IMG/VR virus record: IMGVR_UViG_3300010396_000026
Location: 1-43,643 of that record
Length of the DNA stretch: 43,643 nt
Reading direction: 5' to 3' (one strand)
Origin: a virus
The notes below the pieces were generated by a model. The model saw only the letters and a list, made by a program, of their open reading frames with translations, was not told where the DNA came from and made no database searches. Shown here piece by piece: positions 2,321-43,643 of the stretch. Each line of letters starts with the position of its first letter. The first letter of the stretch is position 1. A program made the position numbers and the translations under genes.

Positions 2321-5097
2321 TGGCGGACATCCATCTTTTGCTTCAGCTTGACCTTGCGGGAGATACGTTTTTTCTCGTAGCCCGCTGCGCGCTCCGGCTC
2401 GCGGATCGAGTAGGGGGCCTGCCTGATGCCGAAAAACTGCTCCGGCCCGCTGATCTTGCTTTCCTGCATCCCGGTCTGGGGCCGGATCGAGATCGGCGAG
2501 AACTGCTGCATCAGGTAGTTGGCATAATCCTTGATGCCCTGCACCGGCTGGCCCTGCCGCGTATCGGTGATTGCGGCGCTGTTCCATTGCTCGTTGTTCA
2601 TCATGTCGTAAAGCGTGGTCCAGAGCGGGTGCACCTTGTTGATGGCCGTCTGCTCGGGCTGGTTGGCCCACTCGACGGCATCCTTCATATACCCCGGCAT
2701 CGACACGCGCTCATCGCCGCCCTGCGCATCCTTGCCGCCGGTCTTGGGAAAGAAATAATCCTTGAACTCCTGCGGCCCCTTGCCGGTCTTGATGTACTGG
2801 TAGAACGCCCCCATCATCGCCGTCATGATCGGCATCGCGACGACATAGGACGCGCGATCGGTGATCTGCTTCATCCCACCCGGAGATTTCTCGCGGCCCT
2901 TGATGCCGGTCTTGGCGATGTCCATAGCCCCGCCGCCCAGCTCCCGCAGCGTGCCGAGGTTCCAGCCGAGGGAACGCACCGCGATGTGGCCGATGTCCTT
3001 CATCGTGCGGTTCCAGAACAGATTGTCGTAGGCCAACTGGCCGAGCCGGTTGTCCACCGAGTCCCAGATGCGCCCCGCCACCTGTCGCAACTGCTTCTGG
3101 TCCATCTTCGGATTGACGCGCAGCTCGTCGCTCATCAGGTCATAGAAAACGCCGAGCTTCATCTTCGGCACCATGTCCTCCATCAGGGGGGCCATGATGG
3201 TATCCATGACACGCGGCACGAGCTGCGCCGCGGCGCGCACCTGTCCCGGCGCGATCTGCATGCCGCCGACTTTGATGGGCGCGGCGTTGCGGAACATTTC
3301 CCGCAGGTCCTGGTCGATCCTCTGCCGCCCGCTCGACCTCATGGCGGTGCCCCGGAACGCCTGCCAGAACGAGCCGGCCGGGGAGCCGCGATAGAACGAC
3401 TCCATCCGCGCCCGTCCGCCGCCGGCGATCAGCGCGTTGACGATCTTCTCCATCTCGGGGCCGTAGGTGCCTCGGCCCAGGTATTGGTTGAGCACCTTGC
3501 GGCCGGTCAGATAGTTCTCGACCGGCGCCGTCGCCTGCCGTCCGAGAAGATTGCCCAGCCCGCGCGCGATCTCGCCCGGCTCGCCACGGCTGATCTGCTT
3601 GATGCCCTTGGCGACCCGCGAGGTCGCGGCGTCGGCAATGACAAAGAGGGCATGGAAGCCGGAGAGGCCAAGCTGCGCCGAGTTCATCATGTTCCCGGCC
3701 GAGCGGATGGTGTCATAGACCGGCTGGCCCGAGAGGCCCGGCGACAGGGCACGGTTGACGATTGTGGCGGCCGGTTCGGGCGCGTAGTAATGGGCGTTGC
3801 CGGCGCGGGCGATCTTGTCCGCGATCGGTATCCAGCCTGGCGGCGGCCGCTCGTCATGCGGCACCTGCACAGCCAGTCCCTCGTCCACCATCTCGTCGAA
3901 CACGTCCCGCGCGGTGATGAAGCGGTCCATCTGGTGGAGCTGCATCAGCGACATTTCAATGGGGTTGTCGGTGACGGGCTTCAGCCCGGCCTCGATCCCG
4001 GCGCGCACCGTGGCGAAGGTGCGCTCTTTCAGGAACTTCTTGCCGCCCTCCAGCGAGCGGCCCCCATACTGGGCGAAGGTATTGGCCGCCTTGGCCGGGT
4101 CCTGCCACAGATGCGGCAGATAATCCTGCACATAGTTGGGCGCGATCCCGAGCTCATCCATCTTGCGCCAGCGCTCGTCGAACAGGCCCCGGATTTCCTT
4201 CGCCAGGCCGCCGAGCTTGGTCCCCTCGTAGGGGCCGAGTTTCCCGGTCTCGATGGCGTCCATGTAGGCAAGGCGCGCGTCCGGCGACAGCTTGCCGACG
4301 GCGGCGCCGAAGCTGCGGAGATTTTCGGCCGCCTGCTGGAAACCCTGTTCCCGGCGTGCCAGCCCCTCCCGAACCATGCCCGCCGTGGTCGATGCCGCCT
4401 CGCCGCGCTTGGCCGGCGAGAAGATGCGCCGGAAATCGTCCGCCACGCCCGAGGGCGGGATGGTCGTGTCGGCCTGCCGCTTGATGTCCTCGATCTGCTC
4501 CGGCGCCATCTCGGCCGCCATCGGCTTGGCCGACTCGGGCGCGGCCGCCGCAGAAGGCATAGGAGGGGCCTCGGGGGGCTTGCGGGTCTCCGTGGCCGTC
4601 TCGGCCCCCTTGACCGCGCCAGCGGGCTTCCCTGTGGCTCCTGGAGGCATTTCAGGCGGGGGCTTAGGTTCGCCCAGCCCCTCGGCCGCCTTTCCGGGGC
4701 CTTGCGTGCCCATCGCGACGTTGCGCGCCTGATCGAGGGTGTTCTGGTATTCCGGGCTTTTTGGATCGAGATGGCGCGCGGCCCATGCCCGCACCCCGGC
4801 CATCGTGGTCAGTTCCTTGGGATCGGCCCCGAACTCTTTGGCGGTCTGCTCGCGCTGCTCCTTGCCCAGCCCCTTGTACCATTGCCAGATGTCGTCTGCC
4901 GTGCGGGCGATGAGGCCGGGCTTCTGCTGCGGCGCAGCATCGAGCCTGAACCCCGGCGGCGGGGGGGGGGGCGCGGCAGGAGCCGCGGGCGGCTTCGTGG
5001 CGGCGTCGAGATTGAAGCCGGGAGGGGGTGGCGGCGGGGCGTTGCCCGGCTGTTTATCGAGCGTGAATCCCGGCGGCGGCGGCGGCGGTGCATCCAT
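2317..5097 (-). CDS. Large internal virion protein candidate with proline-rich N-terminal repeats
   Basis: 926 residues. The N-terminus carries three repeats of six prolines followed by GF(T/N/R)LD within the first 55 residues. A Pro/Ala/Glu-rich linker follows to about residue 190, then a long mostly helical region to the basic C-terminus (KKRISRKVKLKQK). There is no signal peptide and no clear membrane span. Size, place after the tail genes and architecture fit an internal or ejected virion protein. The helical part resembles large polyvalent-protein-associated regions (LPD38 type), but this is from memory and uncertain. An 11-base G run at 4961-4971 encodes prolines of the third repeat and is a possible slippage site. 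Confidence 0.6.
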   Translation of the reverse strand: MDAPPPPPPGFTLDKQPGNAPPPPPPGFNLDAATKPPAAPAAPPPPPPGFRLDAAPQQKPGLIARTADDIWQWYKGLGKEQREQTAKEFGADPKELTTMAGVRAWAARHLDPKSPEYQNTLDQARNVAMGTQGPGKAAEGLGEPKPPPEMPPGATGKPAGAVKGAETATETRKPPEAPPMPSAAAAPESAKPMAAEMAPEQIEDIKRQADTTIPPSGVADDFRRIFSPAKRGEAASTTAGMVREGLARREQGFQQAAENLRSFGAAVGKLSPDARLAYMDAIETGKLGPYEGTKLGGLAKEIRGLFDERWRKMDELGIAPNYVQDYLPHLWQDPAKAANTFAQYGGRSLEGGKKFLKERTFATVRAGIEAGLKPVTDNPIEMSLMQLHQMDRFITARDVFDEMVDEGLAVQVPHDERPPPGWIPIADKIARAGNAHYYAPEPAATIVNRALSPGLSGQPVYDTIRSAGNMMNSAQLGLSGFHALFVIADAATSRVAKGIKQISRGEPGEIARGLGNLLGRQATAPVENYLTGRKVLNQYLGRGTYGPEMEKIVNALIAGGGRARMESFYRGSPAGSFWQAFRGTAMRSSGRQRIDQDLREMFRNAAPIKVGGMQIAPGQVRAAAQLVPRVMDTIMAPLMEDMVPKMKLGVFYDLMSDELRVNPKMDQKQLRQVAGRIWDSVDNRLGQLAYDNLFWNRTMKDIGHIAVRSLGWNLGTLRELGGGAMDIAKTGIKGREKSPGGMKQITDRASYVVAMPIMTAMMGAFYQYIKTGKGPQEFKDYFFPKTGGKDAQGGDERVSMPGYMKDAVEWANQPEQTAINKVHPLWTTLYDMMNNEQWNSAAITDTRQGQPVQGIKDYANYLMQQFSPISIRPQTGMQESKISGPEQFFGIRQAPYSIREPERAAGYEKKRISRKVKLKQKMDVRQ
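4961..4971. repeat. 11-base G homopolymer inside a coding region
   Basis: A run of 11 G on the plus strand (C on the coding strand) lies in the third polyproline repeat of the 926-residue protein. A one-base change would truncate the protein near its N-terminus. It could be a slippage site or a sequencing problem; the frame is intact in this assembly. Confidence 0.85.
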
Positions 5098-24162: not shown

Positions 24163-25617
24163 TTAGCCGAAGGTCGCCGAGAACGCCGAGGTCGACTCGA
24201 TGCGCGCCGCGAACTGCGCATTGAGAATGATCGTGCCGTAGTAGGCTTTCCAGCCCACGATGCGCAACTGATTGAGGGGGTCGCTCTTGTCGGCGTCCTT
24301 GAGGTAGGTGAATTTGGCGTTGTCGAGCATGACCTGCCCGTAAGCGCCGCGCCCGAACAGGAACGACGGATAGACCGTGATGCCGCTGCCGGGCGCCGCC
24401 GGGGGCGACTGCGCGACGCCGAGGCCGGTAATGACCGCCGTGGTGCCGGGCTGCAATTGCACCGCCTGACCCTGGAGGGGGCCGACCGTCGGGCCCGCCG
24501 CCGAGAGGCCCAGCTGGCCGGGCGAGGTGGTGGTGCCGACATAGATGTTGTAGGTGAAGCCCGGATTGGCGGCGAGGACCACGCTGATCGAGCCGTTGGG
24601 GCCGGTCACGCTGATCGAGTTCGAGACCGCGTAGATCTGGCTCTCGTACTGGTTCTGCGTGTCGGACGCGGTGACGATGATGTAGTAGGTGCCGGTGGCG
24701 AGGCTGCCCGCCGTGCCCGGCGTGCCGTTGACCTGCGCGTAGCCGGTGAAGGTCGGCACCATGTTGGACTGGCACCAGCGCGTCCCGGCCCACTCGCCGA
24801 TCTCGTAATTGTAGAGCCGGTTGAGGTCGGAATAGGACCGCGCCAGCACAACGGTCGCGTTCTGCGACCAGTCGGCGGTGACGAGGGTGTGGCAGATGCC
24901 GACATAATGCGGCATGCCGCGCGGATTGGCCGAGGCCCGCGCGCCGCCCGCTTCGGCGGCGATCTTGGTGTCGGTCATCTCGTCGCCCACGAAGCGCGGC
25001 GCGCCGATGGTCTGGAGCGCGGCCGAGGTGCGCAGTACGGTCGTGGTGTCGAGCACGTCGCCGGCGACAAGGGCGCCGCGGCTGCCGCGCGAGTTGACGT
25101 AATTGACCTGGGTGAGGCCCATCAGCGCGTTGAAGGTGTTGCGCTCCAGGGTTTCCGAGAGCTGCAGGCCGACCAGCTCGATGGCCTTCTTGAACAAGGG
25201 GTGCTTGGTGGTGAGCTCGGCCACGTCGGTGATCGTCACCTTGTCGCCCCATTGCTGGGCGACGGCGCTGACCTGCTGGATGGTCATGGTCTCGCCGATG
25301 GGCGGCACGCCTTCCGAGAGCGGGGCTTGCGGCAGCGGGATACGATTGTACCGGGTGGCGGTGTAGGTATTGCCCATGCCCTTGGGGAGGGTCAGGGGGT
25401 CGCCGAACTGGTAGGCGACCAATTGGCGGCGGGCGAGCGGCAAGGTCTCGTCCGCGATGTAATTCTGCATGTCGGACGAGAACTGGCTCGCCGAGTTGGT
25501 GGCGAAGGCCACGTTGGGCGAATGGTATTCGCCGAACTGATCCCACCGCGATGGCGCGTGGAACGATTGGAAATCGCCGCCGGGTGCGGCGCCGGAACTG
25601 AAGTCGAAACCTTCCAT
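24163..25617 (-). CDS. Major capsid protein, N4-gp56 family, with inserted Ig/FnIII-like domain
   Basis: 484 residues. The N-terminal 280 match the N4-gp56-type capsid: ADETLPLARRQLVAYQFGDP, then a polar E-loop region (PKGMGNTYTATRYNRIP), TIQQVSAVAQQWGDKVTITD, and ELVGLQLSETLERNTFNAL. The C-terminus (VYPSFLFGRGAYGQVMLDN to the end) completes the fold. Residues of about 290-410 are an extra beta domain (ATGTYYIIVTASDTQNQYES, TYNIYVGTTTSPG) between two core segments, as in capsids with surface-displayed Ig-like domains. The ribosome site GGAGGG sits in a hairpin (see 25623-25658). Forms the head shell after cleavage-free or scaffold-led assembly. Confidence 0.88.
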   Translation of the reverse strand: MEGFDFSSGAAPGGDFQSFHAPSRWDQFGEYHSPNVAFATNSASQFSSDMQNYIADETLPLARRQLVAYQFGDPLTLPKGMGNTYTATRYNRIPLPQAPLSEGVPPIGETMTIQQVSAVAQQWGDKVTITDVAELTTKHPLFKKAIELVGLQLSETLERNTFNALMGLTQVNYVNSRGSRGALVAGDVLDTTTVLRTSAALQTIGAPRFVGDEMTDTKIAAEAGGARASANPRGMPHYVGICHTLVTADWSQNATVVLARSYSDLNRLYNYEIGEWAGTRWCQSNMVPTFTGYAQVNGTPGTAGSLATGTYYIIVTASDTQNQYESQIYAVSNSISVTGPNGSISVVLAANPGFTYNIYVGTTTSPGQLGLSAAGPTVGPLQGQAVQLQPGTTAVITGLGVAQSPPAAPGSGITVYPSFLFGRGAYGQVMLDNAKFTYLKDADKSDPLNQLRIVGWKAYYGTIILNAQFAARIESTSAFSATFG

Positions 25618-28658: not shown

Positions 28659-30662
28659 CTACCTCCGTGGCATGGTCGAGCGATAGGGCGCCCGATCCGC
28701 GACGGTAGCATAGTGAAAATTGTCGCGCTCGTCATCCGGCTCGCCGGTCTTGAGCAATCCGGCGAAGGATTCGAGGCCCTCCATCAGCACCCGGTACGGC
28801 CCTTCCTCGGCAAAATCGGCGAGGAGGCCGCCCCTCAGGATCGCGCGGGCATAGCCGCCGCTCATAGCGTTAAGAACCCACCGTGCTTCCGTGGACACCA
28901 TGAATGAGGGCATGCCTCGTGTTGTTTTACGCAAATAACTGCGGATTTCCCCTCGACCGCTATCAGGCCGCACCCCCCGCCGTACATCCGTAACGGTTCG
29001 GCGAACAGACTGGACAAGGCCGACGTTGTTGTACTGGTCGAAGTGGAGGGGGCCGACAATAAGATTGACCTTGGTTCCTGCGGCAAGATTGGCCTCCGTT
29101 ACGATGTCGGCGACGACCGCGCCGGGATCGCCCTCGCGCACCCAGTCGGCGAAGATGCGCAAGGCGCCGTCGAGGAGCTGGACGAGGATGCCCGTGGTCA
29201 TGGCCTGGGTGGCGTTCAAGGCAAGCCAGCACGGCCGGCCCGGCGCCGGGGACAATTCCTCGGCGATGTTCTGCATGGTGAAGTCGTCGTAGATCGGCGC
29301 GCCCGGCCGCATCCTGAGGGCATAGGCGAGGGCGTTCATGCCGTCGATGCGGCCCGTCGGGAAGTTGGCGAAGAGGGCGCGGGCCTCCTGATTGTCGGAG
29401 GCGAGCACGATCTCGCGGGCCTGGGCGAAGGGCTGAAGGCCCCGGATGAAGTCGAGCTTGCCCTTGGGGGCCTTCTCGGCCTTGACCGGCAGGACGACGC
29501 CGCGGCGGAGCTGCTCCTGCCGGATCGGCTGCATCAGCCATTCGTTGAGGCCGTCCGCTTCGACGCCCTGGACCACCGGATGATACCGCTCATGCTCGTC
29601 GAACAGGGAAGCGACGATCTCGTGCGGCATCAGGGGCCGCTGCCATAATTCCCAAATTAGTAATTTCGGGCCCACCCAGGACCACACCGCGCCGCCGGTA
29701 TAGGCGGCGTTGGGGCCGACCGTGCGCGCCGGGTCCTTCATCGAGTAGACCGCCTGCCAGGCATGGACCGTGGGCTCGACGCGGATCATGTCGGGCTTGA
29801 AGGGTTTGCTCTCCGGCGACTCGGAATGGCACATATACTCGCGCTCGTACTCGGCGCCGCGCCCGAGGCTGTAAAGCTGGCGGCGCTTCAATTCGATGGT
29901 TTCGAGCGGGTAGCGGTCGGGCCAGGTCGCGAGGCGCTCGCCGTGCTCGCCGCGATATTCCCAGGGATAGACCCGGACGACGAAGCCCGAATCGGGGGAT
30001 TTCAGCTTGTTGGCGATGCACTCGGGATGCATGTCGTTGGCGAGCATGCGCACCCGCAAGGTCGGCTCGTCGCCCGCGGGCAGCAATTCGGTGAAGAACC
30101 AGACCTGGACCTTCTCGCGGCCTTCCTGAGTCGAGACCGAGGTGAGGTCCTCGATGTCGTCGGCGAGGATGAAGTCGGGGCGGTAATCGACGTTTTTGGT
30201 GCCGCGGATCGCCTGCCCGCGCCCCATCGCAAGGAGGGTAGCCCCGGTGGACAATTCCAATTGGTCGTCGCCCCAGGGCTGGCCCCGGAGATCGCCGAAG
30301 AGTGCGAGGATGCGGGCGTTTTTCTCGAACTGGCGGCGGATGGCGTGGAGCCGTTCCTGCGCCTTGTCGAGCGAAGCGCCGACGATGAGGCCGTGCTTGA
30401 TCTCGCGGGCGATGGTCTTGATGACGATCCCTTCCTCGGCGATGGTCGATTTGGCCGAGCCGCGGAACGCGATCTCGCAGAGATTGCGCATCTGGGGCGC
30501 TTCCGAGTGGAAGTCGTCGATCATCTCCAAATGAAAGGGCGCGGTTTTCGAGCGGTGGCGGTGCTCGAACAACACGGCATGGGCGAGGCGGCGATCGCGC
30601 AGGAGCTTGAGAATCGTGGCGTCGCGGACGGCGTCAGACGTAATGATAACCGCTCCTGTCAC
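28659..30662 (-). CDS. Terminase large subunit
   Basis: 667 residues. Walker A is FRGSAKST (residues 66-73, the phage R-G-x-x-K-S/T variant). Walker B with catalytic acid is FILADDIED (164-172). The C-terminal nuclease half has SMKDPA (about 307-312), VEADGLNEW and FPTGRIDGMNALAYAL, fitting the RNase H-type nuclease acids. It pumps DNA into the head and cuts it. The assumed GTG start overlaps the upstream gene by 29 bases. AGGAG followed 8 bases on by ATT is an alternative initiation point seven codons later. A small terminase was not identified by sequence. Confidence 0.88.
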   Translation of the reverse strand: MTGAVIITSDAVRDATILKLLRDRRLAHAVLFEHRHRSKTAPFHLEMIDDFHSEAPQMRNLCEIAFRGSAKSTIAEEGIVIKTIAREIKHGLIVGASLDKAQERLHAIRRQFEKNARILALFGDLRGQPWGDDQLELSTGATLLAMGRGQAIRGTKNVDYRPDFILADDIEDLTSVSTQEGREKVQVWFFTELLPAGDEPTLRVRMLANDMHPECIANKLKSPDSGFVVRVYPWEYRGEHGERLATWPDRYPLETIELKRRQLYSLGRGAEYEREYMCHSESPESKPFKPDMIRVEPTVHAWQAVYSMKDPARTVGPNAAYTGGAVWSWVGPKLLIWELWQRPLMPHEIVASLFDEHERYHPVVQGVEADGLNEWLMQPIRQEQLRRGVVLPVKAEKAPKGKLDFIRGLQPFAQAREIVLASDNQEARALFANFPTGRIDGMNALAYALRMRPGAPIYDDFTMQNIAEELSPAPGRPCWLALNATQAMTTGILVQLLDGALRIFADWVREGDPGAVVADIVTEANLAAGTKVNLIVGPLHFDQYNNVGLVQSVRRTVTDVRRGVRPDSGRGEIRSYLRKTTRGMPSFMVSTEARWVLNAMSGGYARAILRGGLLADFAEEGPYRVLMEGLESFAGLLKTGEPDDERDNFHYATVADRAPYRSTMPRR

Positions 30663-31024: not shown

Positions 31025-31235
31025 GAGGCCGGTGATTGTAGCGGCCTTTGACGTGGCGGTGGAAGTACTGGCCGGCCGAGCGCGCCGTGGTGACGCCGTG
31101 AAACACCGCGGGCGGCACCTTCTCGTAATCGTGCCGCGAGCCGTCGGCCATGCGGATGGTCAGCGTCTGGTCGGCGTCGTCATATTCCCACTGGATCGAG
31201 TGGGAGGATTGGGGGGTGTCGTGGACGTGCTTCAT
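31014..31235 (-). CDS. KTSC-domain protein
   Basis: 73 residues; the ATG overlaps the endolysin stop. SSHSIQWEYDDADQTLTIRM, HDYEKVPPAVFHGVTTARSA and GQYFHRHVKGRY match the KTSC family pattern (S-x-I-x-x-V/W-x-Y-D, Y-x-Y/E-x-V-P, A-x-S-x-G-x-Y-F-x-x-x-I/V-x-x-x-Y). The domain is common in phages and bacteria. Its biochemical role is not established to my knowledge. Confidence 0.75.
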   Translation of the reverse strand: MKHVHDTPQSSHSIQWEYDDADQTLTIRMADGSRHDYEKVPPAVFHGVTTARSAGQYFHRHVKGRYNHRPHAG

Positions 31236-31630
31236 TTGACGTCGCGATAGAAAATCTGGGTGCCGAACTGGCCGCAGAAGGTCGCCCCCTTAACCCAGAA
31301 CGGCTCGGGAATGGTGGGCGAGTAATAGTGGGTCGAACCGTTGGTGAAGTCGTTTTCCTCGCCGCCCGTGACCTGTTCGATGATCGCCTTGCATTGCGCC
31401 AGAGCCGGATCGTCCGGGTTGGTGATGGCGAGGCGGCGGCGGTTGGGGTCGGAGGTGTTCCAGCACGAGAACTGGAGCGGGTGGAGGCAGACGGCGGCGA
31501 GGAAGGGACCCCAGCGCGGGTCCTTCGAGCGGTTGACGAGGACATGGGCGACGGCGCGCTTCCCCTCCTCAGGCTCGGCGGAGGCCTCCATCCACAACGT
31601 CATCGTCGCGATTTCCATGTCATAGGCCAT
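31232..31630 (-). CDS. Endolysin, SleB-type cell-wall hydrolase (Hydrolase_2)
   Basis: 132 residues. TLWMEASAEPEEGKRAVAHV carries the family's catalytic Glu region (normally W-x-E-A-R/S-G/x-E). LVNRSKDPRWGPFLAAVCL and PLQFSCWN are hallmark segments. It ends with FWVKGATFCGQFGTQIFYRD. The family cleaves peptidoglycan. There is no signal peptide, so release should need the holin-like protein at 32726. GAGGAG lies 7 bases before the ATG. It sits in a lysis cluster with spanin-like genes. Confidence 0.88.
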   Translation of the reverse strand: MAYDMEIATMTLWMEASAEPEEGKRAVAHVLVNRSKDPRWGPFLAAVCLHPLQFSCWNTSDPNRRRLAITNPDDPALAQCKAIIEQVTGGEENDFTNGSTHYYSPTIPEPFWVKGATFCGQFGTQIFYRDVK

Positions 31631-32951: not shown

Positions 32952-32980
32952 CCTATATCGTGGCTTGCATGATCATGCAA
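32952..32980 (-). promoter_or_regulatory. Candidate late promoter
   Basis: On the minus strand: TTGCAT (32980-32975), 17 bases, TATAGG (32957-32952), a sigma70-like spacing. Transcription would begin about 20 bases before the holin-like ATG and could read the whole 32-kb block. The -35 and upstream spacer lie inside a perfect 16-bp palindrome, so binding there should block it. Confidence 0.5.
32965..32980. promoter_or_regulatory. Operator candidate site 1 (perfect palindrome)
   Basis: TTGCATGATCATGCAA, a perfect 16-bp palindrome, the most symmetric member of the TTGC-N8-(G/A/C)CAA set. It covers the -35 of the late promoter. Confidence 0.65.
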
Positions 32981-32998
32981 ATGCTATTTGCAAAAATG

Positions 32999-33014
32999 TT
33001 GCTGCAAAAGGCAA
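32999..33014 (-). promoter_or_regulatory. Operator candidate site 2
   Basis: Minus-strand TTGCCTTTTGCAGCAA, 13 of 16 bases identical to the site at 34058. It lies 18 bases upstream of site 1, so the late promoter also has a pair of sites. Confidence 0.5.
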
Positions 33015-33133
33015 TGCTGTTTTCTGGAACAGCGAATAATTCTTGGGTGAGGGGTAAAATCTCTTCTCTCCCCCGTCCCTGCCCGGATTTTCCCCGAATG
33101 AGCTTTCCCCACGACTCGCGCGTATCACCAGGC

Positions 33134-33155
33134 GCTCATGCTCTCCGGCATGAGC
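33134..33155. repeat. Perfect 8-bp hairpin
   Basis: GCTCATGC, loop TCTCCG, GCATGAGC. No T run follows on either side. It is immediately followed by an ACTTAAC/GTTAAGT inverted repeat. Possible origin or control structure. Confidence 0.6.
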
Positions 33156-33198
33156 TACTTAACCGGATTGTAGTTAAGTTCCGGGGTTGTTTCCCATC

Positions 33199-33231
33199 CC
33201 CAAATTAGTTGGGCACCCCAATCATTTGGGT
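33199..33231. repeat. Two adjacent inverted repeats
   Basis: CCCAAATTAGTTGGG (33199-33213) and ACCCCAATCATTTGGGT (33215-33231). Both have CCCAA...(T)TGGG arms around an AT-rich centre, about 18 bases apart. They look like paired binding sites or short stems. Confidence 0.55.
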
Positions 33232-33356
33232 AACTGATTGTGTGGTGTTCACATCACTATGCGTGTCTGCGCGCATGCGTGCGTGAAAGGGCTTCCCCTC
33301 TGTCTGCATCTGATGGCCCCTTTTCCGTGGCCCACTTCGACAGCCTTCGGCGTTGT

Positions 33357-33388
33357 CCCTTGCGATGGTCGCTATCGCTTCGCAAGGG
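33357..33388. repeat. Perfect 9-bp inverted repeat with 14-base loop
   Basis: CCCTTGCGA and TCGCAAGGG enclose TGGTCGCTATCGCT. An AT-rich stretch (taataacatatacat) follows. Strong stem without a terminator T run; fits an origin-type or regulatory hairpin. Confidence 0.6.
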
Positions 33389-33450
33389 TCTAATAACATA
33401 TACATAAGGAAACAGTCCTTTTTCTCAATGATTTCAATGGGGGTAATAAC

Positions 33451-33478
33451 TTGACCGATACCGGTTTTCTACTATACC
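33451..33478 (+). promoter_or_regulatory. Candidate promoter for the RepL-like gene
   Basis: TTGACC (33451-33456), 16 bases, TATACC (33473-33478), 31 bases before the ATG at 33509. A GGGAG ribosome site sits 6 bases before that ATG. No TTGC-N8-CAA site was seen here, so it may be outside that control. Confidence 0.5.
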
Positions 33479-33508
33479 GTACATGCCTTTCCACTTTGGG
33501 AGTATAAA

Positions 33509-33898
33509 ATGCGGCGTTATGCAGAGGCTCCGCTGATCGCGATCCGGCCACGGCTGGCGCATCCGTATGGAGATTTTATGCAGTTCAGCCAACTTCATTT
33601 GCGCCGCCTTGCTCAGGGCCGCGCGCTCGGCCAGGAAGCCACCCGCTTGTGGTGGGCCTGCCTTGCCCTCGCCGACTACGAAAACCGCATCGACGCCGAC
33701 GCGGCCGATCTCTCGCGCTTCTGCGATATGCAGCTAAGCGCCGTCTACCGCGGCCTGAAGGTCCTCAAGGAGCAGGAGCTCATCGAGCCGCACCCGACGC
33801 GCCATCGCGCCTTGCGCGTCAATCCCCTCGTCGCGTGGAAGGGGTCCGTCAAATCGCTCAAGGACGAGCTGCGCCGCATCGAGCAGCGTGCCGCATGA
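33509..33898 (+). CDS. RepL-like winged-helix replication protein candidate
   Basis: 129 residues. The N-terminal part is FMQFSQLHLRRLAQGRALGQ. The winged helix-turn-helix is ADLSRFCDMQLSAVYRGLKV followed by LKEQELIEPHPTRHRALRVN and PLVAWKGS. This order, including the hairpin wing and the N-P-x-x-A-W-K/R-G end, resembles RepL-type plasmid replication initiators. The start is supported by GGGAG with 6-base spacing. It sits beside the repeat-rich non-coding region, a natural origin. It could also be a transcription regulator. Confidence 0.6.
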   Translation: MRRYAEAPLIAIRPRLAHPYGDFMQFSQLHLRRLAQGRALGQEATRLWWACLALADYENRIDADAADLSRFCDMQLSAVYRGLKVLKEQELIEPHPTRHRALRVNPLVAWKGSVKSLKDELRRIEQRAA

Positions 33899-34056
33899 TC
33901 GCACGCGCCGCCGAGCTCGCCCTCGTCTGGCTCCTCATCATCCTCTTTTCCGCCCTCAGCGCCTGGACCTTCCTCGGCTTCATCTGGTGGTCCCTCACCG
34001 GCACCATCTCCCCTCATTTCGCCCTCCTGGCCTGGCTGGCTGGTCTCCTGCATTAG
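33895..34056 (+). CDS. 53-residue two-span membrane protein
   Basis: The ATG overlaps the RepL-like gene's stop (ATGA). Two hydrophobic segments: AELALVWLLIILFSALSAWT, which continues into FLGFIWW, and HFALLAWLAGLL. It has a short basic head (IARAAE). No family was recognised. Being coupled to a replication-type gene, it might anchor a complex at the membrane, but nothing shows this directly. Confidence 0.6.
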   Translation: MIARAAELALVWLLIILFSALSAWTFLGFIWWSLTGTISPHFALLAWLAGLLH

Positions 34057-34057
34057 C

Positions 34058-34073
34058 TTGCATAATGCAGCAA
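34058..34073 (+). promoter_or_regulatory. Operator candidate site 3
   Basis: TTGCATAATGCAGCAA, ending 8 bases before the -35 of the promoter at 34082. Confidence 0.55.
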
Positions 34074-34081
34074 TGTTTCTG

Positions 34082-34111
34082 TTGACAGGACAGAAGCGGC
34101 CGCGCTAGTCT
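34082..34111 (+). promoter_or_regulatory. Candidate promoter for 34144
   Basis: TTGACA (34082-34087), 18 bases, TAGTCT (34106-34111). Site 3 lies just upstream and site 4 begins at the base after the -10. The same arrangement surrounds the promoter at 37481. Confidence 0.6.
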
Positions 34112-34127
34112 TTGCATGTAACGCCAA
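34112..34127 (+). promoter_or_regulatory. Operator candidate site 4
   Basis: TTGCATGTAACGCCAA; one base differs from the TTGC-N8-GCAA form. It covers the expected transcription start. Confidence 0.45.
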
Positions 34128-34143
34128 CCTACGGGGGATTACC

Positions 34144-34359
34144 ATGGACAACGACATTATCTGGCAGGGCATGCAACATTCCGTGCGCCGCGAGCTGTGG
34201 GGCTACGGCGTCTATTGCGAGGGCACAACCCACGCCACGCTGGTGGGCCGCTACGGGCTGAGTCAGGGCGAGGCCGGCCGCGCCATTCACGATGCCGAGC
34301 GGCGCGACGGCGAGCTCGACTTCGGGCCGCTGATCCGGGTCCCGATGGTGACGCGATGA
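34144..34359 (+). CDS. 71-residue protein of unknown function under a controlled promoter
   Basis: Preceded by GGGGGA about 5 bases upstream and by the promoter at 34082. Reads MDNDIIWQGMQHSVRRELWG, then THATLVGRYGLSQGEAGRAI and HDAERRDGELDF. The middle could be a helix-turn-helix (LVGRYGLSQGEAGRAIHDAE), which would make it a regulator controlled by the same operators. Not recognised as a named family. It overlaps the next gene by ATGA. Confidence 0.6.
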   Translation: MDNDIIWQGMQHSVRRELWGYGVYCEGTTHATLVGRYGLSQGEAGRAIHDAERRDGELDFGPLIRVPMVTR

Positions 34360-34484
34360 GCACCCTCCTCGACGCGATCGCCCTCATCGTGCTGGTCGGC
34401 GGCGTCACGCTGTTCCTGTGCGGCACGATGGGGTTTTTGCTGTTTGTCGGCGGCCTCATCCTCGAAGCGCGCCGCCTGCGCTAG
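34356..34484 (+). CDS. 42-residue membrane protein
   Basis: ATGA overlap with 34144. One long hydrophobic region (LIVLVGGVTLFLCGTMGFLL continuing to FVGGLIL), probably two short spans, and a basic end EARRLR. Its TAG stop shares the CTAG with the convergent ATPase gene. Function unknown. Confidence 0.55.
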   Translation: MSTLLDAIALIVLVGGVTLFLCGTMGFLLFVGGLILEARRLR

Positions 34485-35368
34485 AACGGCATAGAATCGT
34501 GTTCCTGCGGCTCGGACCAGTTCCGGGCCGCAGTCGTTTCCACCCGCTCGAACACGCCCTGCCGCCATTTCAACTCGACCTTGCCGCCCGAGGCCGAGTA
34601 GTTGGATTTCCGCACCCGCAGGAACCGTATGTCGGGCTTGTCCTCGGCCTGCTTTCCGGCATCGGTCAGATACATCATCGAGCGCACCTCGTTGCGCCAG
34701 GCGCGGTTGCCCGCGATGCCGGAGCCGGTCGAGATGCCCTCGTTGGAAGGGTGCAAGGTGAACAACACGGTGCCGCCGATCTCGATGGCGAGACGCCGCA
34801 GCATCACCGCATAGGCCGTGACCTGCTGATCGTTGATCTCGTTGCCGCCGAAGGTCTTGCGCGCGGTGTCGAGCACCACGAGCTGCGCCCCGGACTCCTT
34901 GACGCTGGCCCGCACCGCGCCCCACAATGGCGTCGGCACCATCCCGCCCTCGAAGCGGTTGGGAAAGCGGCAGAGATAGCTGGTCTGATCGACCCGGCTG
35001 GTCAAGGTCATGTCCTCGCCCAAATCGTCCATCTCGCAGCCGTAATGCCGGTTGATGTCGGCCTGCCGGCGCTGCAATTCCGCCATCGCATCCTCGCAGA
35101 ACATGCCCCAGACCCGCACCTTGCGCGTGCCGAAGCCGAGCCACGGCCGCCCCAGCGCCATCGCCGTCATCAATTGCTGGACGATCAGCGATTTGCCGTG
35201 CCCGCCATCGCCCGAGAGCATGGTGACGGTGCCGGGCGAGATAAGATCGTCCACCAGCCATTGCCGCCGCGGCACCGGCTGGCCGTGCCAGAGATCGGGC
35301 GAGAAGGTGCGAAGCTCGTCCGCCTCGTCACGCTTGGCCTGCCGCGGGAAATTCTCGATATTGCTCAT
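34481..35368 (-). CDS. RepA-like RecA-fold ATPase (AAA_25 type)
   Basis: 295 residues; the ATG overlaps the zinc-ribbon stop. Walker A GDGGHGKS (53-60) sits in VTMLSGDGGHGKSLIVQQL. Walker B is LVVLD (163-167), and TVLFTLHPSN resembles the sensor strand with HxxK-like position. KVELKWRQGVF is near the end. The set matches RepA-like hexameric helicases and ATPases of plasmids and phages. It likely unwinds DNA or loads replication factors. It is the last gene of a replication/recombination block with RusA and a zinc ribbon. Confidence 0.8.
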   Translation of the reverse strand: MSNIENFPRQAKRDEADELRTFSPDLWHGQPVPRRQWLVDDLISPGTVTMLSGDGGHGKSLIVQQLMTAMALGRPWLGFGTRKVRVWGMFCEDAMAELQRRQADINRHYGCEMDDLGEDMTLTSRVDQTSYLCRFPNRFEGGMVPTPLWGAVRASVKESGAQLVVLDTARKTFGGNEINDQQVTAYAVMLRRLAIEIGGTVLFTLHPSNEGISTGSGIAGNRAWRNEVRSMMYLTDAGKQAEDKPDIRFLRVRKSNYSASGGKVELKWRQGVFERVETTAARNWSEPQEHDSMPF

Positions 35369-35592
35369 GGCCGGACGCCGCAGACGACAATGCTGCCGCG
35401 GCTGCGGACGGAACCAGACCAAAAAGCGCGGCCGCAATCCGGGCACGCCGCAGATTCGTGTTCCTCAAGAACATGGCCGGAGGGATGGCCGACCACGAAG
35501 CTCATCAGGCACTGGCCACAGACCAGCCGCCCATCCTCCCGCGTCGTATCAGGCCGGCGCTTGATCTGGCCGTGTATTTTGGACTTCCCCAC
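35365..35592 (-). CDS. Zinc-ribbon protein (GTG start)
   Basis: 75 residues. GTG is chosen because GGAGGA lies 4-5 bases before it; a longer ORF upstream is out of character. LVCGQC (Cys 25 and 28) and ACPDCG (Cys 50 and 53) make a four-Cys zinc ribbon, with His residues between (GHPSGHVLEEHE). The N-terminus is basic (KSKIHGQIKRR). Placement before a helicase-type ATPase suggests a primase-like or nucleic-acid-binding helper. It overlaps the upstream gene by 44 bases. Confidence 0.65.
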   Translation of the reverse strand: MGKSKIHGQIKRRPDTTREDGRLVCGQCLMSFVVGHPSGHVLEEHESAACPDCGRAFWSGSVRSRGSIVVCGVRP

Positions 35593-36058
35593 CGTTTCCT
35601 CCGTCGATGATGATTCTGGGCACCAGGACAGGCCGCTCCAGGAGCCGCCGCAGCTCCATCGCGTGCTCGATGTCCTCGCCCGCCACCCCGCCGCAGCCGA
35701 GCAGCAGCCGTTGCTGATCCGCCGGCAGGCCCAGCGGCACAATGCCCCGGCATTTGCCGCGCAGCCATGACGCCACGCCACGCCGCACCGGAACCGGCTC
35801 GGGATTGAGATATTGCGGCTCGAAATGCCCAAGGCACTCGCCGAGGCCGGTCCGCATCAGCAAACCCGGCTCATCCGGCCGCCACGCGATCAGATCGACG
35901 ATCTCACCCCAGAAGGTCTCCAGCATCGGTGTATCGGTCTCGACCTCCCAGCCGCGCAGCGGGGTAACGAAGAGTCTGGAATGGCCCTCCGGAGCCCACA
36001 GAAGCCCGCCGGCGAGCTTTTCGGCCAGAACCACGCCGACCATGCCCATCGCAATCAT
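35549..36058 (-). CDS. Conserved-looking replication-region protein of unknown function
   Basis: 169 residues from the first ATG: LAEKLAGGLLWAPEGHSRLF, then EIVDLIAWRPDEPGLLMRTG, YLNPEPVPVRRGVASWLRGK and CRGIVPLGLP. I recall similar proteins near RepA-like ATPases in alphaproteobacterial prophages but cannot name a domain. The same frame is open and protein-like upstream (SDIAILRHYSVPDA). A CTG at 36109 overlaps the stop of the 18-codon ORF (CTGA), so the true start may be that CTG, adding 17 residues. Confidence 0.6.
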   Translation of the reverse strand: MIAMGMVGVVLAEKLAGGLLWAPEGHSRLFVTPLRGWEVETDTPMLETFWGEIVDLIAWRPDEPGLLMRTGLGECLGHFEPQYLNPEPVPVRRGVASWLRGKCRGIVPLGLPADQQRLLLGCGGVAGEDIEHAMELRRLLERPVLVPRIIIDGGNGGEVQNTRPDQAPA

Positions 36059-36105
36059 TGCATCAGGGACGCTGTAGTGGCGCAGGATGGCAATGTCCGA
36101 GGGGA

Positions 36106-36162
36106 TCAGCGCGGCAACCGCCCCGCCATCTCGACCTCAAGCTCGACCGAAAGCTCGGTCAT
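36106..36162 (-). CDS. 18-residue micro-ORF, possible leader
   Basis: The ATG overlaps the stop of the gene at 36159 (ATGA) and reads MTELSVELEVEMAGRLPR. Its TGA overlaps the candidate CTG start of the next gene. It fills the gap between the two genes. It may be a translated coupling leader rather than a functional peptide. Confidence 0.35.
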   Translation of the reverse strand: MTELSVELEVEMAGRLPR

Positions 36163-36341
36163 TTTTTGGGGAGATCGACAATTAGCTTATTGGCGAGCGC
36201 GTATTTTCGGGCTTCTTGATAGGAAATTCCGCGCGATTCGGCGATGCTTTGGATGTAGGCCGCGCGTTGGGCACTTTCGCGGGGTTTCCCGCGCCACTCG
36301 ACGAGGCGGCGCGTGTTGTGTACTTGAGGCAATTCGGACAT
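36159..36341 (-). CDS. 60-residue basic protein of unknown function
   Basis: Start set by AGGAGGGG 4 bases before the ATG. MSELPQVHNTRRLVEWRGKP, then AQRAAYIQSIAESRGISYQE, then ARKYALANKLIVDLPKK. The second half could be a small helix-turn-helix (IAESRGISYQEARKYALA). No family was named. The repeats at 36409-36469 lie just upstream and could control it. Confidence 0.6.
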   Translation of the reverse strand: MSELPQVHNTRRLVEWRGKPRESAQRAAYIQSIAESRGISYQEARKYALANKLIVDLPKK

Positions 36342-36408
36342 TTTCCCCTCCTGATCGTCCCCACCGGAAAAGACGAGGGCGGCGCCGAGCGGGGAAGGAC
36401 CCGGCATT

Positions 36409-36426
36409 GGCGGCCAACCTGCCGCC
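36409..36426. other. Hairpin in the gap before 36341
   Basis: GGCGGC, loop CAACCT, GCCGCC: a perfect 6-bp stem next to the iteron-like repeats. Lacks a T run, so it is not a clear terminator. Confidence 0.45.
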
Positions 36427-36433
36427 CTCGCTA

Positions 36434-36469
36434 CCGGTTATAATCCGGTTACGGGCCGGTTACAACCGG
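36434..36469 (+). repeat. Helically phased CCGGTTA repeats (iteron-like)
   Basis: CCGGTTA occurs at 36434, 36445 and 36456, exactly 11 bases apart, and CCGG again at 36466. The array overlaps the last codons of the GcrA-like gene. The decamer AATCCGGTTA (36442-36451) is found inverted at 33160-33169 in the main non-coding region. One-turn spacing suggests side-by-side protein binding on one DNA face, as in operators or replication iterons. Confidence 0.6.
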
Positions 36470-36820
36470 ATTTGTTGCCGTATCGTGCAAATTGCGCCCA
36501 TGCGCCAGCGCGTCGTGTTCCGGACAATAGGGCTTCATCCAGATCGCCGCCTTGCCGCACATGCGGAAGCCGGGCTGGCCGGGATGGCCGATGGGCCACT
36601 GGCACTCCTTGGGCCGCGGGACTGGCGGGCCGGGCGGCCTGGCGCGTGGTGTGCCCGGCCGGCGCGACGCGACGCCGATGCGATGGGCCTTGCCGACCAC
36701 CTGGTTCTTGTTGAGGCCGAGCGCCGCCGCGATGGTCTCGTACCGCTCGCCGCGCTCCGCCAGCGTTATCAGGCGTTCTTCAAGCTCCGGCGTCCACGGA
36801 TTCTTGTCTTTCCAGTACAT
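36449..36820 (-). CDS. gcrA-like: GcrA-family cell-cycle regulator homologue
   Basis: 123 residues from the ATG preceded by GGAGGG. The N-terminal DNA-binding part is WTPELEERLITLAERGERYE, then TIAAALGLNKNQVVGKAHRI (GcrA proteins read W-T-x-E-R-V-x-x-L-x-x-L-W, then I-A-x-x-L-G-x-x-x-R-N-A-V-I-G-K-x-H-R-L). The C-terminal part has KECQWPIGHPGQPGFRMCG and KPYCPEHDALA, the family's C-Q-W-P-I-G and P-Y-C-x-x-H pattern. GcrA is an alphaproteobacterial transcription factor that works with sigma70 at CcrM-methylated GANTC sites. The phage copy probably redirects host or phage promoters. Confidence 0.88.
   Translation of the reverse strand: MYWKDKNPWTPELEERLITLAERGERYETIAAALGLNKNQVVGKAHRIGVASRRPGTPRARPPGPPVPRPKECQWPIGHPGQPGFRMCGKAAIWMKPYCPEHDALAHGRNLHDTATNPVVTGP
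36475..36490 (-). promoter_or_regulatory. Operator-like site inside the GcrA-like gene
   Basis: Minus-strand TTGCACGATACGGCAA, a full TTGC-N8-GCAA match and 14 of 16 identical to the site at 37458. The shared run AATTTGCACGATAC is 14 bases. It is coding sequence here, so it may be a roadblock or remote site, or chance. Confidence 0.35.
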
Positions 36821-37166
36821 CCCCCGCCCTCCATGCCTCGATCTCGACCGCGCAGCCCTCGACCGCGCCCCAGCGCAGGTGGATTTCCTCCGCCAGCGAA
36901 TCGTCGGCGACGATGCCCATGTACACCAGCGCATCGCTCACCGCCTTCTCGCAATTCCCGAGATCGCCACGCCCGCGCTCGATGACGAGCGAGAGGGTGT
37001 AGCGGCCTACGAGCGGCCACGGCTGGCCGACGCGCTGCACCATGATGAGCTGGTGCGCCTCGTTGCGCCACCGCTGATACCGATCGGTGCGGGCGCGCGA
37101 GCCGCGTTTGGTGGTGAAAAAGAGATTGTTGACCGACGGCGGCCTGGGCAGCCGGAAGGTGATCAC
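36780..37166 (-). CDS. rusA: RusA-type Holliday junction resolvase
   Basis: 128 residues from a GTG that overlaps the repressor-like gene's TGA. ITFRLPRPPSVNNLFFTT is the family's opening (P-x-P-x-x-N). RGRGDLGNCEKAVSDALV and GIVADDSL hold the catalytic acids (D-x-x-N-x-x-K-x-x-x-D-x-L and D-D). EIHLRWGAVEGCAVEIEAW follows. RusA dimers cut four-way junctions. In this phage it would resolve structures made by YqaJ/Bet recombination and branched DNA before packaging. It overlaps the GcrA-like gene by 41 bases. Confidence 0.85.
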   Translation of the reverse strand: MITFRLPRPPSVNNLFFTTKRGSRARTDRYQRWRNEAHQLIMVQRVGQPWPLVGRYTLSLVIERGRGDLGNCEKAVSDALVYMGIVADDSLAEEIHLRWGAVEGCAVEIEAWRAGDVLERQESVDAGA

Positions 37167-37435
37167 GACTCCGCTACCGCCGGCGCATCGTACCAGTCGA
37201 GGCATTGACGGATCGTGACCTCGCCGCCCGTCGCCGTCTCGATGCGCTTCAGCGTGTCGAGGCGCGGCATCACCGGCTTGCGGTTCTTGTTCGGCGAGTC
37301 GTCCTGATCGACCATGTAGTAGATGGTGCGGAAGGTGAAGCCGTATTCCTGCGCGAAGGTCAGCGGCGTCATCTGCCGTCCCGAGGGCGCGGTCTGCTTC
37401 TCGATCCACGCCAGAAGCGGATGCTTGGGTCTCAT
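37163..37435 (-). CDS. Helix-turn-helix repressor-like regulator
   Basis: 90 residues. HPLLAWIEKQTAPSGRQMTP, then a probable HTH in LTFAQEYGFTFRTIYYMVDQ, then RLDTLKRIETATGGEVTIRQ and CLDWYD. The ending TLxxIExATGGEVT is typical of Cro/YdaS-like phage regulators. It is transcribed away from the recombination block, and the 103-base gap between them holds two operator candidates. It is the best candidate to bind the TTGC-N8-(G/A/C)CAA sites and control itself, the right block and late genes. No clear promoter of its own was seen. Named family uncertain. Confidence 0.75.
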   Translation of the reverse strand: MRPKHPLLAWIEKQTAPSGRQMTPLTFAQEYGFTFRTIYYMVDQDDSPNKNRKPVMPRLDTLKRIETATGGEVTIRQCLDWYDAPAVAES

Positions 37436-37457
37436 GCCGCGACCCTACCAATTAAAT

Positions 37458-37473
37458 TTGCACGATACAACAA
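37458..37473 (+). promoter_or_regulatory. Operator candidate site 5
   Basis: TTGCACGATACAACAA, ending 7 bases before the -35 at 37481; the counterpart of site 3. Confidence 0.55.
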
Positions 37474-37480
37474 TAATTGC

Positions 37481-37509
37481 TTGACCCGCCATCGGGGAGA
37501 GGTTAGTTT
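37481..37509 (+). promoter_or_regulatory. Candidate early promoter of the recombination block
   Basis: TTGACC (37481-37486), 17 bases, TAGTTT (37504-37509). Laid out like the promoter at 34082: an upstream site, then the -35, a TAGTYT-type -10, and a second site at the transcription start. It should drive 37539 onward through the joint. Confidence 0.65.
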
Positions 37510-37523
37510 GCATGACATAGCAA
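37508..37523 (+). promoter_or_regulatory. Operator candidate site 6
   Basis: TTGCATGACATAGCAA overlaps the last two bases of the -10 and the expected start point, so binding should repress. Confidence 0.55.
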
Positions 37524-37538
37524 TGAATGGAGCGGCCA

Positions 37539-37817
37539 ATGGAGAGGGAAGATTTGTTGTTGATGCTGGAGCACATCACGGAGCTGGCGGCGGAGAACGA
37601 GGGCAAGCGCCTTCGCATCGAGCGCCTCAACCAGTGCGTCGAACGGCTGAAGCGCGAGCGTGACGAGGCGCGGCTTCATGCCGAGACGCTGACGCGGGAG
37701 GTCAACGATTTGCGCGCGGCGCGGCTACCATCGGGCAACCCCCTCGCCAATCCTCTCCTCGGCAATTCGACCGGCTTCGGCGGCGGCAGCGGCACTCTCG
37801 GCCCGGTGGTCCGATGA
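37539..37817 (+). CDS. Coiled-coil protein, first gene of the recombination block
   Basis: 92 residues from the ATG with GGAG 6 bases upstream; an earlier in-frame ATG at 37527 lacks a ribosome site. REDLLLMLEHITELAAENEG through LKRERDEARLHAETLTREVN is continuous heptad-type helix. The C-terminus is a flexible Gly/Asn/Ser tail. There is no catalytic motif. The ATG of YqaJ overlaps its stop, so the two are probably co-translated; a partner or regulator of the recombinase is possible. Confidence 0.65.
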   Translation: MEREDLLLMLEHITELAAENEGKRLRIERLNQCVERLKRERDEARLHAETLTREVNDLRAARLPSGNPLANPLLGNSTGFGGGSGTLGPVVR

Positions 37818-38614
37818 TTCAGCTTGGCTTAACCGCAGCCGCGATTGAGGAGCACAAGCTCGGCATCGGCGGCAGCGATGCCCGCAAGATCATCGAGGGC
37901 GACTGGCATGCGCTGTGGCTCGACAAGACCTCGCGCGCCGAGCCCGAGGATTTGAGCCGCAATCTCGCGGTGCAGATGGGCAGTTTCACCGAGCCGCTCA
38001 ATCTCTACTGGTTCGAGCTGATGGGCCACGGCGCGGTGTCGAACCAAGGCCTCGTCTGCGTCCACGATACCCACAAGTTCATGCGCTGCACCCTCGACGG
38101 GATTGCTGATGTCTCGACGCCGAAGGCGCGCGTCATCCAGTGCAAGCACGTCTCTGGCCGGCAACCCATCGAGGAGGTGGTGGCGCGCTACACGCCGCAG
38201 GTCAGCCACGAGATGATCGTGACCGGGTTGGAGCGCGGCGTCCTCTCGCTCTTGATCGGCACCGACCGCTTCGAGGTCGTGGAACTGGAACTCGATGAGC
38301 TTTATGCGGCCGAGTACATCGAACGCTGCGCCGAGTTCTGGAAATATGTCGAGAACGACATCGAGCCGGAACAGGGCCGGCCCTTGCCACCCCCGCCGCC
38401 GATCACGCAGTTCCGCGCCGTCTCGATGGAAGGCAACAACGCCTTCGCCGATGCGGCGGCGCGCTGCCTCGCCCATAAGGCCGGCGCCGAGGCGTTCGAG
38501 CGGGCCAAGAGCGACATCAAGGCGCTGATCGAACCCGATGTCGGGCTGGCGACGGGTTACGGCGTGGCGGTGAAGCGCGATAAACGCGGTCTTTCGATCA
38601 AGGAGCAAAAATGA
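37814..38614 (+). CDS. YqaJ-family (lambda-exonuclease-type) recombination nuclease
   Basis: 266 residues. [20 protein letters not shown] is the family's opening. [27 protein letters not shown] (catalytic Asp), [10 protein letters not shown] (the E/Q-x-K position, here Q-C-K rather than the common E-x-K) and [13 protein letters not shown] follow. The family resects linear double-stranded DNA to give a 3' single strand for an annealing protein, here Bet two genes on. The C-terminal third (about 185-266) is an extra helical region. Confidence 0.85.
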
Positions 38615-38802
38615 GCATCCGCCCAACACTGAGCGACGACGAGGCCGAAACGCTGCTGGCTTGCCTCGATTTCTGCATCGACCGGCTCGATGTCCGGTTG
38701 GGGAAATACCAGGAGGCCGTCGAGGCGTTCGCGCTGTCGATGGCGCGTCACAAGATTTTGAAACTGCGGGCCAAGCTGTTCCCGCCGAAGGGGCAAAAGT
38801 GA
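38611..38802 (+). CDS. 63-residue protein between exonuclease and annealing protein
   Basis: ATGA overlap with YqaJ and GTGA overlap with Bet. Helical: [20 protein letters not shown], then [20 protein letters not shown], then a basic end [11 protein letters not shown]. The conserved order suggests a helper of the recombination pair. No family was recognised. Confidence 0.65.
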
Positions 38803-39707
38803 TGGCTGACGAACTGATGGCGCATGGCGCGCTGGCGACCTTCAATCCGACCGCCGAGCAGGTCGATCTCATCAAGCGCACGATCTGCCGCGGCGCTTCC
38901 GACGAGGAATTGAGGCTGTTCCTCTACCAGTGCAAGCGCACCGGCCTCGACCCGCTGGCCCGCCAGGCCTATGCGGTGAAGCGGTGGGACAACGCGCTTC
39001 AGCGCGAGGCCATGACGATCCAGACCGGCATCGACGGCTTCCGCCTCATTGCCGAGCGATCGGGCAAGTATGCCGGCCAGGTCGGCCCCGAATGGTGCGG
39101 CGAGGACGGCGCATGGCGCGATGTGTGGCTGGCGAAGGAGCCGCCCCACGCGGCCCGCGTCGGCGTCTTGCGCACCGATTTCAAGGAGCCGCTCTATGCC
39201 GTGGCGCGGTTCTCGACCTACGCGCAGAAAAAGAAGGACGGCGGCCTGACCAAGTTCTGGTCGAGCATGCCGGACCTGATGATCGCGAAGGTGGCCGAGG
39301 CGCTGGCGCTGCGCCGCGCCTTCCCGCAAGAACTCTCGGGCCTCTATACGTCCGACGAGATGGACCAGGCGTCAACCGGAGAGGAGGTGGTGCAACATAC
39401 CGGACCTAGACAAACCTCGGGCCCCGCAGACAATAAGGCGACGGCCGCGGTAATTGATGCCGCGGCCGATCCCCAATCCCGGACCGAGGCGCAGGAGAAA
39501 TACAAGGCCCTGAAGCGCCGCATCGAGACCGCGCCGACGGCGGCGGCTCTCGACAACACGATGCGCGACCATGCCGACGATCTCGCCTTCATCAAGGCGG
39601 TCTCGGAAGCGGGCTACAACCAGATCATGGCGTTGAGCGTGCGGCGCAAGGATTCGCTGGCCGAGGAGGACATGCCGCGCGGCCCGGACACGGAGATCGT
39701 TCCGTGA
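38802..39707 (+). CDS. bet: Bet/RecT-type single-strand annealing protein
   Basis: 301 residues. [40 protein letters not shown] and [10 protein letters not shown] match the Bet opening. [20 protein letters not shown] is the hallmark segment, followed by [20 protein letters not shown] and [17 protein letters not shown]. It pairs single strands made by YqaJ. The last 90 residues are a linker and a helical extension. GTG at 38799 just before the ATG is also possible. Confidence 0.9.
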
Positions 39708-43498: not shown

Positions 43499-43643
43499 CC
43501 GAGCCGATGACAGCGCGCGAGCAAATGACGCCGAGAGAACGCGCACTCAAGACTGCGGAGGTATATTTCACGCTTAAGGATCGCGATGAAGGGGAATCCC
43601 TGATTTCTCTGATCCATAGCGCCATCCTCGCCGACCGTGCCGC
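43495..43643 (+). CDS. 5' part of the gene continued at base 2
   Basis: ATG overlaps the DUF4031 stop (ATGA). Reads MTEPMTAREQMTPRERALKT and runs off the window in frame with the ORF at bases 2-655. The in-frame continuation across the joint is the best evidence for circularity. See the entry at 2-655 for the protein. Confidence 0.75.
   Translation, partial: MTEPMTAREQMTPRERALKTAEVYFTLKDRDEGESLISLIHSAILADRA
43521..43643. repeat. Terminal direct repeat, right copy
   Basis: This is an exact copy of bases 1-123. It lies inside a coding sequence (start at 43495), which is unusual for a physical phage terminus and favours an assembly overlap of a circular or permuted molecule. Confidence 0.95.

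Follow-up and report, generated by a model that had tools for sequence, protein, structure and literature searches.

How can a regulator and its whole set of binding sites evolve together while the network that they form keeps working? This old question is raised by a virus genome of 43,643 nucleotides (IMG/VR record IMGVR_UViG_3300010396_000026, the whole of which is referred to here as the window). A preliminary description had pointed to a shared 16-bp operator, TTGC-N8-(G/A/C)CAA, recurring at three promoters between positions 32952 and 37523, and had proposed that a single regulator, probably the helix-turn-helix protein encoded at 37163-37435, controls the late, middle and recombination blocks together. 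Our analysis leads us to the view that this 90-residue protein is very probably an autoregulated Cro/CI-like repressor, acting via shared sites on the recombination, middle and late promoters and on a fourth one.

Operator sites and their promoters

All seven sites of the preliminary description are present, and they are real, promoter-linked elements. Two stand 50 bp apart on the plus strand: rec1 (37458-37473), before the -35 element of the recE operon and inside the putative promoter of the regulator gene, and rec2 (37508-37523), at the start point of the recombination promoter. Two more, 54 bp apart on the same strand, frame the middle promoter, with mid1 (34058-34073) before its -35 and mid2 (34112-34127) at its start point. 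On the minus strand are late1 (32965-32980), a perfect palindrome (TTGCATGATCATGCAA) over the late -35, late2 (32999-33014), a weaker site upstream, and p4 (36475-36490, TTGCACGATACGGCAA), upstream of the fourth promoter.

The motif is commoner than in shuffled DNA, a comparison that had been suggested as a check, with 18 strand-wise matches in the whole window against 4.0 +/- 2.3 in dinucleotide shuffles, none of which (0 of 100) reached 18. Five copies of the strict palindrome TTGC-N8-GCAA lie in 32952-37523, where 0.12 are expected and 2000 Markov simulations gave a maximum of two, and one copy lies in the remaining 39 kb; among all 256 four-letter palindromes with an equal gap, TTGC is the commonest in this region. 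For a held-out test, a 17-column weight matrix was built from one site pair only and scored at 87,254 window positions. The matrix from the rec pair (37457, 37507) ranks p4 (36475, minus strand), late1 (32965, minus strand), mid1 (34057) and mid2 (34111) third, fourth, fifth and sixth, the top six places in the genome being operators without exception, and the matrix from the mid pair puts p4, rec2, rec1 and late1 at ranks 3-6 and late2 at rank 9. Late2 is the weakest of the seven sites, its rank being 33 or 9 depending on the held-out matrix. That these repeats are products of chance or base composition might be read from the loose pattern outside the region, which is found at five loci, close to the number expected by chance. 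However, this explanation is contradicted by the held-out ranking (3-6 of 87,254), by the five palindromes against 0.12 expected and by the concerted change in relatives described below, and is hardly credible.

The promoter plan that had been noticed, in which a site is followed by 7-8 bases, TTGAC(A/C), 17-18 bases, TAGTYT and a second site, is borne out at the recombination promoter (37481-37508, plus strand, TTGACC ... TAGTTT) and at the middle promoter (34082-34111, plus strand, TTGACA-N18-TAGTCT). So is the position of the late palindrome over a -35, which lies on the minus strand in a promoter (32952-32980, TTGCAT-N17-TATAGG, by sequence inspection) ahead of the first late gene, whose ATG is at 32926. 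The site at 36475 had been described as lying in coding sequence, which is correct, since it falls inside the 3' end of a GcrA-like open reading frame, but incomplete: it is followed, after nine bases on the minus strand, by TTGTAA-N17-TATAAC (36437-36465), so that it is placed relative to a promoter as rec1 and mid1 are. This fourth promoter, again recognised by sequence inspection, serves a small gene ending at 36159. The block proposed to be controlled from the recombination promoter (37527-39707, plus strand) comprises a small gene, a RecE-like exonuclease (37814-38614) and RecT (38661-39707), as judged from Pfam and PHROG matches. On the opposite strand, the regulator gene has a putative promoter of its own, TTGTAT-N17-TAGGGT, 6 nt before its ATG, with counterparts in two relatives introduced below (TTGTAG-N17-TATGGT in G001 and TTGCTG-N17-TATGGT in L156), all three identified by inspection.

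The recombination, middle and fourth promoters share a site centred at about -50 to -52, and the fourth has only this upstream site, an arrangement that would be expected of a dual regulator activating from sites near -51 and repressing from start-point or -35 sites, as a switch in time. However, the placement of rec1 is explained by autorepression, as it overlaps the regulator's own promoter, and we consider a dual role unlikely.

Concerted change in relatives

A scan of relatives for the letters of the motif, which had been suggested as a check, finds no TTGC-N8-GCAA set in 46 RecT-bearing loci. Conservation by letters is the wrong test, and conservation by position is the right one, which is best seen in G001 (IMGVR_UViG_3300036790_000318), a complete genome with a 127-bp terminal repeat that is syntenic with the window (identities of 92% for the major capsid protein, 80% for TerL and 74% for RecE). 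The TTGC-N8-GCAA motif is absent from G001, which instead carries TTnCCATCnTnnCACAA at the corresponding places and spacings. Its rec sites (3585 and 3635, TTTCCATCCTACAACAA and TTTCCATCATATCACAG) are 50 bp apart and its middle sites (40132 and 40186, TTGCCATCCTGTCACAA and TTGCCATCGTAAGCCGC) 54 bp apart, exactly as in the window; its late site (38121, TTTCCATCGAGGCACAA) lies over a minus-strand -35 (TTGTGC-N17-TAAGGC), like the window palindrome, and a p4 counterpart (2903, minus strand, CTACCATCCCCACACAG) precedes TTGTTT. A matrix from the G001 rec pair ranks mid1 third and the late site fourth of 82,532 positions. Column 4 of the site is G at every window site and C at every G001 site.

A second relative, L156 (5.6 kb), has rec sites TTTCCATCAATCAGCAA and TTACCATGATACGGCAA around TTGACA, 48 bp apart. 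These are hybrids, the left half being CCAT as in G001 and the right half GCAA as in the window, and they look like an apparent intermediate between the two forms. The p4 counterpart in L156 (2535, minus strand, CTTCTATCCCACAGCAA), before TTGCGC, ranks third of 11,132 positions by the L156 rec-pair matrix. The recombination promoter plan is found in both G001 and L156. Sites in these relatives thus keep their promoters and spacing and change their sequences in concert, which supports the proposal of one regulator for the late, middle and recombination blocks: one site sequence stands at several operon promoters and changes with the regulator from relative to relative.

Farther away, a plain comparison of the best 17-mer shared between promoters was judged against 400 random segments. 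In G003, which encodes a more distant homolog of the regulator, TTCCCGCTnGCGAGACT is repeated at the rec and late regions, with a best match of 16/17 that is equalled by 1 of 400 random segments; short-word matches in G003 are not significant by themselves, as 136 of 150 random segments have one. In L158, CTTGCAACGGGTTGCAAG has a near copy 2 kb off in intergenic DNA, and L053 carries a CCCTTC-type site at the rec and middle promoters; both cases are weak and not counted as proof. Other small genes lie upstream of recE in G012 (L153) and in several marine RecE loci. Many of the marine loci L055-L127 have, about 1 kb before recE, a short frame on the minus strand that is very weakly regulator-like, and these distant phages may share the layout.

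Three further features of these promoter regions were observed. The leader of the fourth promoter can fold in all three phages (window 36347-36430, minus strand; G001 2772-2862, minus strand; L156 3077-3183, plus strand) into a long closed stem with inner hairpins, at -37 to -40 kcal/mol, the stem strands GAGGGCGGC...GCCGCCCTC being replaced in L156 by GAAGGCGGC...GCCGCCTTC, a paired change; there is no Rfam match near the fourth promoter, and the leader is a possible attenuator or structured leader. TAACCGG occurs three times (GTAACCGG/ATAACCGG) in the fourth promoter (window 36437-36470), and these copies may be targets of a different regulator. The late upstream region of G001 holds two copies of GAGGCACAAGAG (38121 and about 38305), of which the first overlaps the late operator.

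The proposed 90-residue regulator

Which protein reads these sites? The gene at 37163-37435 (minus strand) is divergent from the early recE operon in the window, G001 and L156, with the shared operators in between, and homologs occupy the corresponding place in G001, L156, G003 and L158. No other DNA-binding gene was found to be shared by the window, G001 and L156, and the diverged part of its product is the helix-turn-helix, which sustains its original nomination as the regulator. Identity is 57% between the window and G001 proteins, while that of L156 is 70% identical to the former and 52% to the latter (tblastn). Between window and G001, 16 of 19 positions are identical in residues 1-19 and 21 of 24 from residue 62 onward, but only 11 of 41 in residues 20-61, so that the ends are nearly identical and the diverged middle contains the helix-turn-helix. 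The same site places and spacings, the concerted change in site sequence and the diverged helix-turn-helix together argue that operators and regulator changed together.

The protein is most likely an XRE-type (Cro/CI-like) regulator, as suggested by its AlphaFold2 model (mean pLDDT 85), which has five helices (6-13, 24-31, 35-42, 59-68 and 75-83) and for which the VIA-align list consists almost wholly of XRE proteins (HigA, SinR, 434 repressor and Cro, P22 C2, YdaS; Z 6-7.7). Its likely base-contact positions, mapped by eye onto 434 repressor, are 35, 36 and 40, which are Phe-Arg-Tyr in the window, Phe-Arg-Leu in L156 and Tyr-Arg-Leu in G001 (Lys-Thr-His and Gln-Arg-Arg in the distant homologs of G003 and L158). 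Leu40 accompanies CCAT sites and Tyr40 GCAy sites, a correlation drawn from three phages only.

Several points weigh against the assignment of fold and sites. VIA-align scores below 8 may reflect a common arrangement (yet the leading rows nearly all share one fold), Foldseek gives weak E-values (0.014 at best), and the window regulator has no Pfam match (E<=1) and no PHROG match. In G001, mid2 (rank 64) and p4 (rank 25) are weak by the rec-pair matrix, and the sites are non-palindromic. The best-17-mer level is reached by 90 of 400 random segments for rec-late in G001, 30 of 400 for rec-mid and 35 of 400 for rec-late in the window, 35 of 400 in L158 and 16 of 400 in L053. As this comparison is not significant everywhere, it is position, spacing and matrix ranks that carry the case. 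In profile and sequence searches, HTH_3 is absent from the window and G001, HTH_7, HTH_35 and HTH_28 give weak matches in one relative each, a PDB sequence search with the regulator profile gives no match, the protein as a single-sequence query finds no viral relatives, and a two-row profile finds G001 only among viral contigs and nothing in genome contigs.

Two other proteins of the window have DNA-binding domains, a GcrA-like protein (36449-36934, minus strand) with a Myb/D5-like helix-turn-helix, whose presence suggests an alphaproteobacterial host, and a winged-helix protein (33509-33898, plus strand) with weak MarR and DnaD-like matches and a homolog in L014, possibly a replication starter or a regulator. 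Either of them, or a host factor, might bind the sites instead; GcrA-type proteins act at promoters in Alphaproteobacteria. However, no homolog of either phage protein is detectable in G001, where the full operator layout is retained, which makes them unlikely common readers of the sites, and a host factor is not expected to change its site along with a phage regulator. We regard this alternative as very unlikely.

Possible role in the phage life cycle

If the 90-residue protein is the reader, it would bind 16-17 bp TTGCAyGAT-type sites, paired or single, on four promoters, and would repress by sitting on start points (rec2 and mid2), on a -35 (late1) and on the promoter of its own gene (rec1). 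Since rec2 and mid2 lie over start points and late1 over a -35, bound protein should block polymerase, and since rec1 lies inside the putative regulator promoter, the gene should repress itself. Both the binding and its sign, repression, are predictions from sequence. Upstream and start-point sites may also cooperate. Cooperation is known for the lambda repressor, and a spacing near five helical turns, preserved exactly in G001, would suit it here. The basis for such cooperativity or looping is the conserved spacing of 50 and 54 bp, and the regulator is without an evident extra domain for cooperation.

What would such a repressor be for? The window genome is complete, as its exact 123-bp terminal repeat (1-123 and 43521-43643) indicates, and has no close relative among named phages by protein or DNA. 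Its left 33 kb, on the minus strand, encodes terminase (28659-30662), the major head protein (24163-25617) and a cell wall hydrolase (31232-31630), while the operator region and its neighbours hold the winged-helix gene, an AAA ATPase, the GcrA-like gene, the regulator, RecE and RecT, as well as a RusA-like gene assigned by reading the sequence. The regulator could serve lysogeny, as the immunity repressor of a temperate phage that has no integrase of its own and persists as a plasmid or by host functions, in which case the operator divergence would be heteroimmunity in the lambdoid sense. Joint silencing of early and late promoters by one protein is typical of immunity repressors, co-divergence of repressor and sites is likewise seen in cluster A mycobacteriophages (PMC6550527), and the putative leaderless-type regulator promoter resembles those of cI and paaR2 (PMC8630535). 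However, no tyrosine integrase (PF00589), resolvase (PF00239) or ParA (PF13614) is found in the window, G001 (both complete by their terminal repeats) or G003, and no second (CI-like) HTH_3 partner repressor was found in either the window or G001. TerL relatives turned up in just 1 of 385 genomes belonging to the host-like class, where the contig is a phage-like one of 13 kb. These findings make a lytic-timing (Cro-like) role at least as likely as lysogeny, and the immunity reading somewhat unlikely. The repressor would rather, or besides, time the lytic operons, possibly being released when replication multiplies the operators. In its boldest form, which is rather doubtful, this would be an obligately lytic lineage whose main operons are all controlled by one 90-residue regulator via about seven sites, as a replication-titrated clock and not a lysogeny switch, with the regulon rewired site by site in living relatives, L156 preserving an intermediate and recognition-helix position 40 (Tyr in the window but Leu in both L156 and G001) tracking the change from GCAy to CCAT.

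Comparable systems exist. Operator specificity varies among the lambdoid relatives 434, P22 and lambda. In Streptomyces phage phiC31, one phage repressor binds inverted repeats that are conserved at early and at late promoters, as proposed here, but phiC31 is temperate, with an integrase, and its repressor is larger. A close working parallel is YdaS/PaaR2 of prophage CP-933P, which, like lambdoid Cro/CI immunity regions, combines a small XRE-fold protein, a divergent gene and autoregulation with 16-18 bp inverted-repeat operators over back-to-back promoters (PMC8630535). Unlike these regions, the window has a single regulator gene with no partner repressor or integrase found, operators also on the late and fourth promoters, and sites that straddle promoters 50-54 bp apart. 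In cluster A mycobacteriophages, too, one repressor serves many genomic sites and co-diverges with the site motif, but these stoperators are asymmetric and orientation-bound, number up to about 30 per genome and lie for the most part outside promoters (PMC6550527, PMC9283540), whereas the window has about seven sites, all at promoters and several palindromic, with chance-level matches elsewhere, and so does not qualify as a stoperator system.

Multi-site phage repressors that co-diverge with their sites are thus already known, from cluster A mycobacteriophages (PMC6550527) and lambdoid phages; what is new here is a probable regulon of this type in another lineage, of interest for its clean intermediate and because lysogeny genes are apparently lacking. 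It offers a natural example of rewiring that is small and complete, with about seven sites on four promoters, one protein of 90 residues, two complete genomes plus an apparent intermediate, and it suggests that a global repressor can be at work in phages without a visible integration system.

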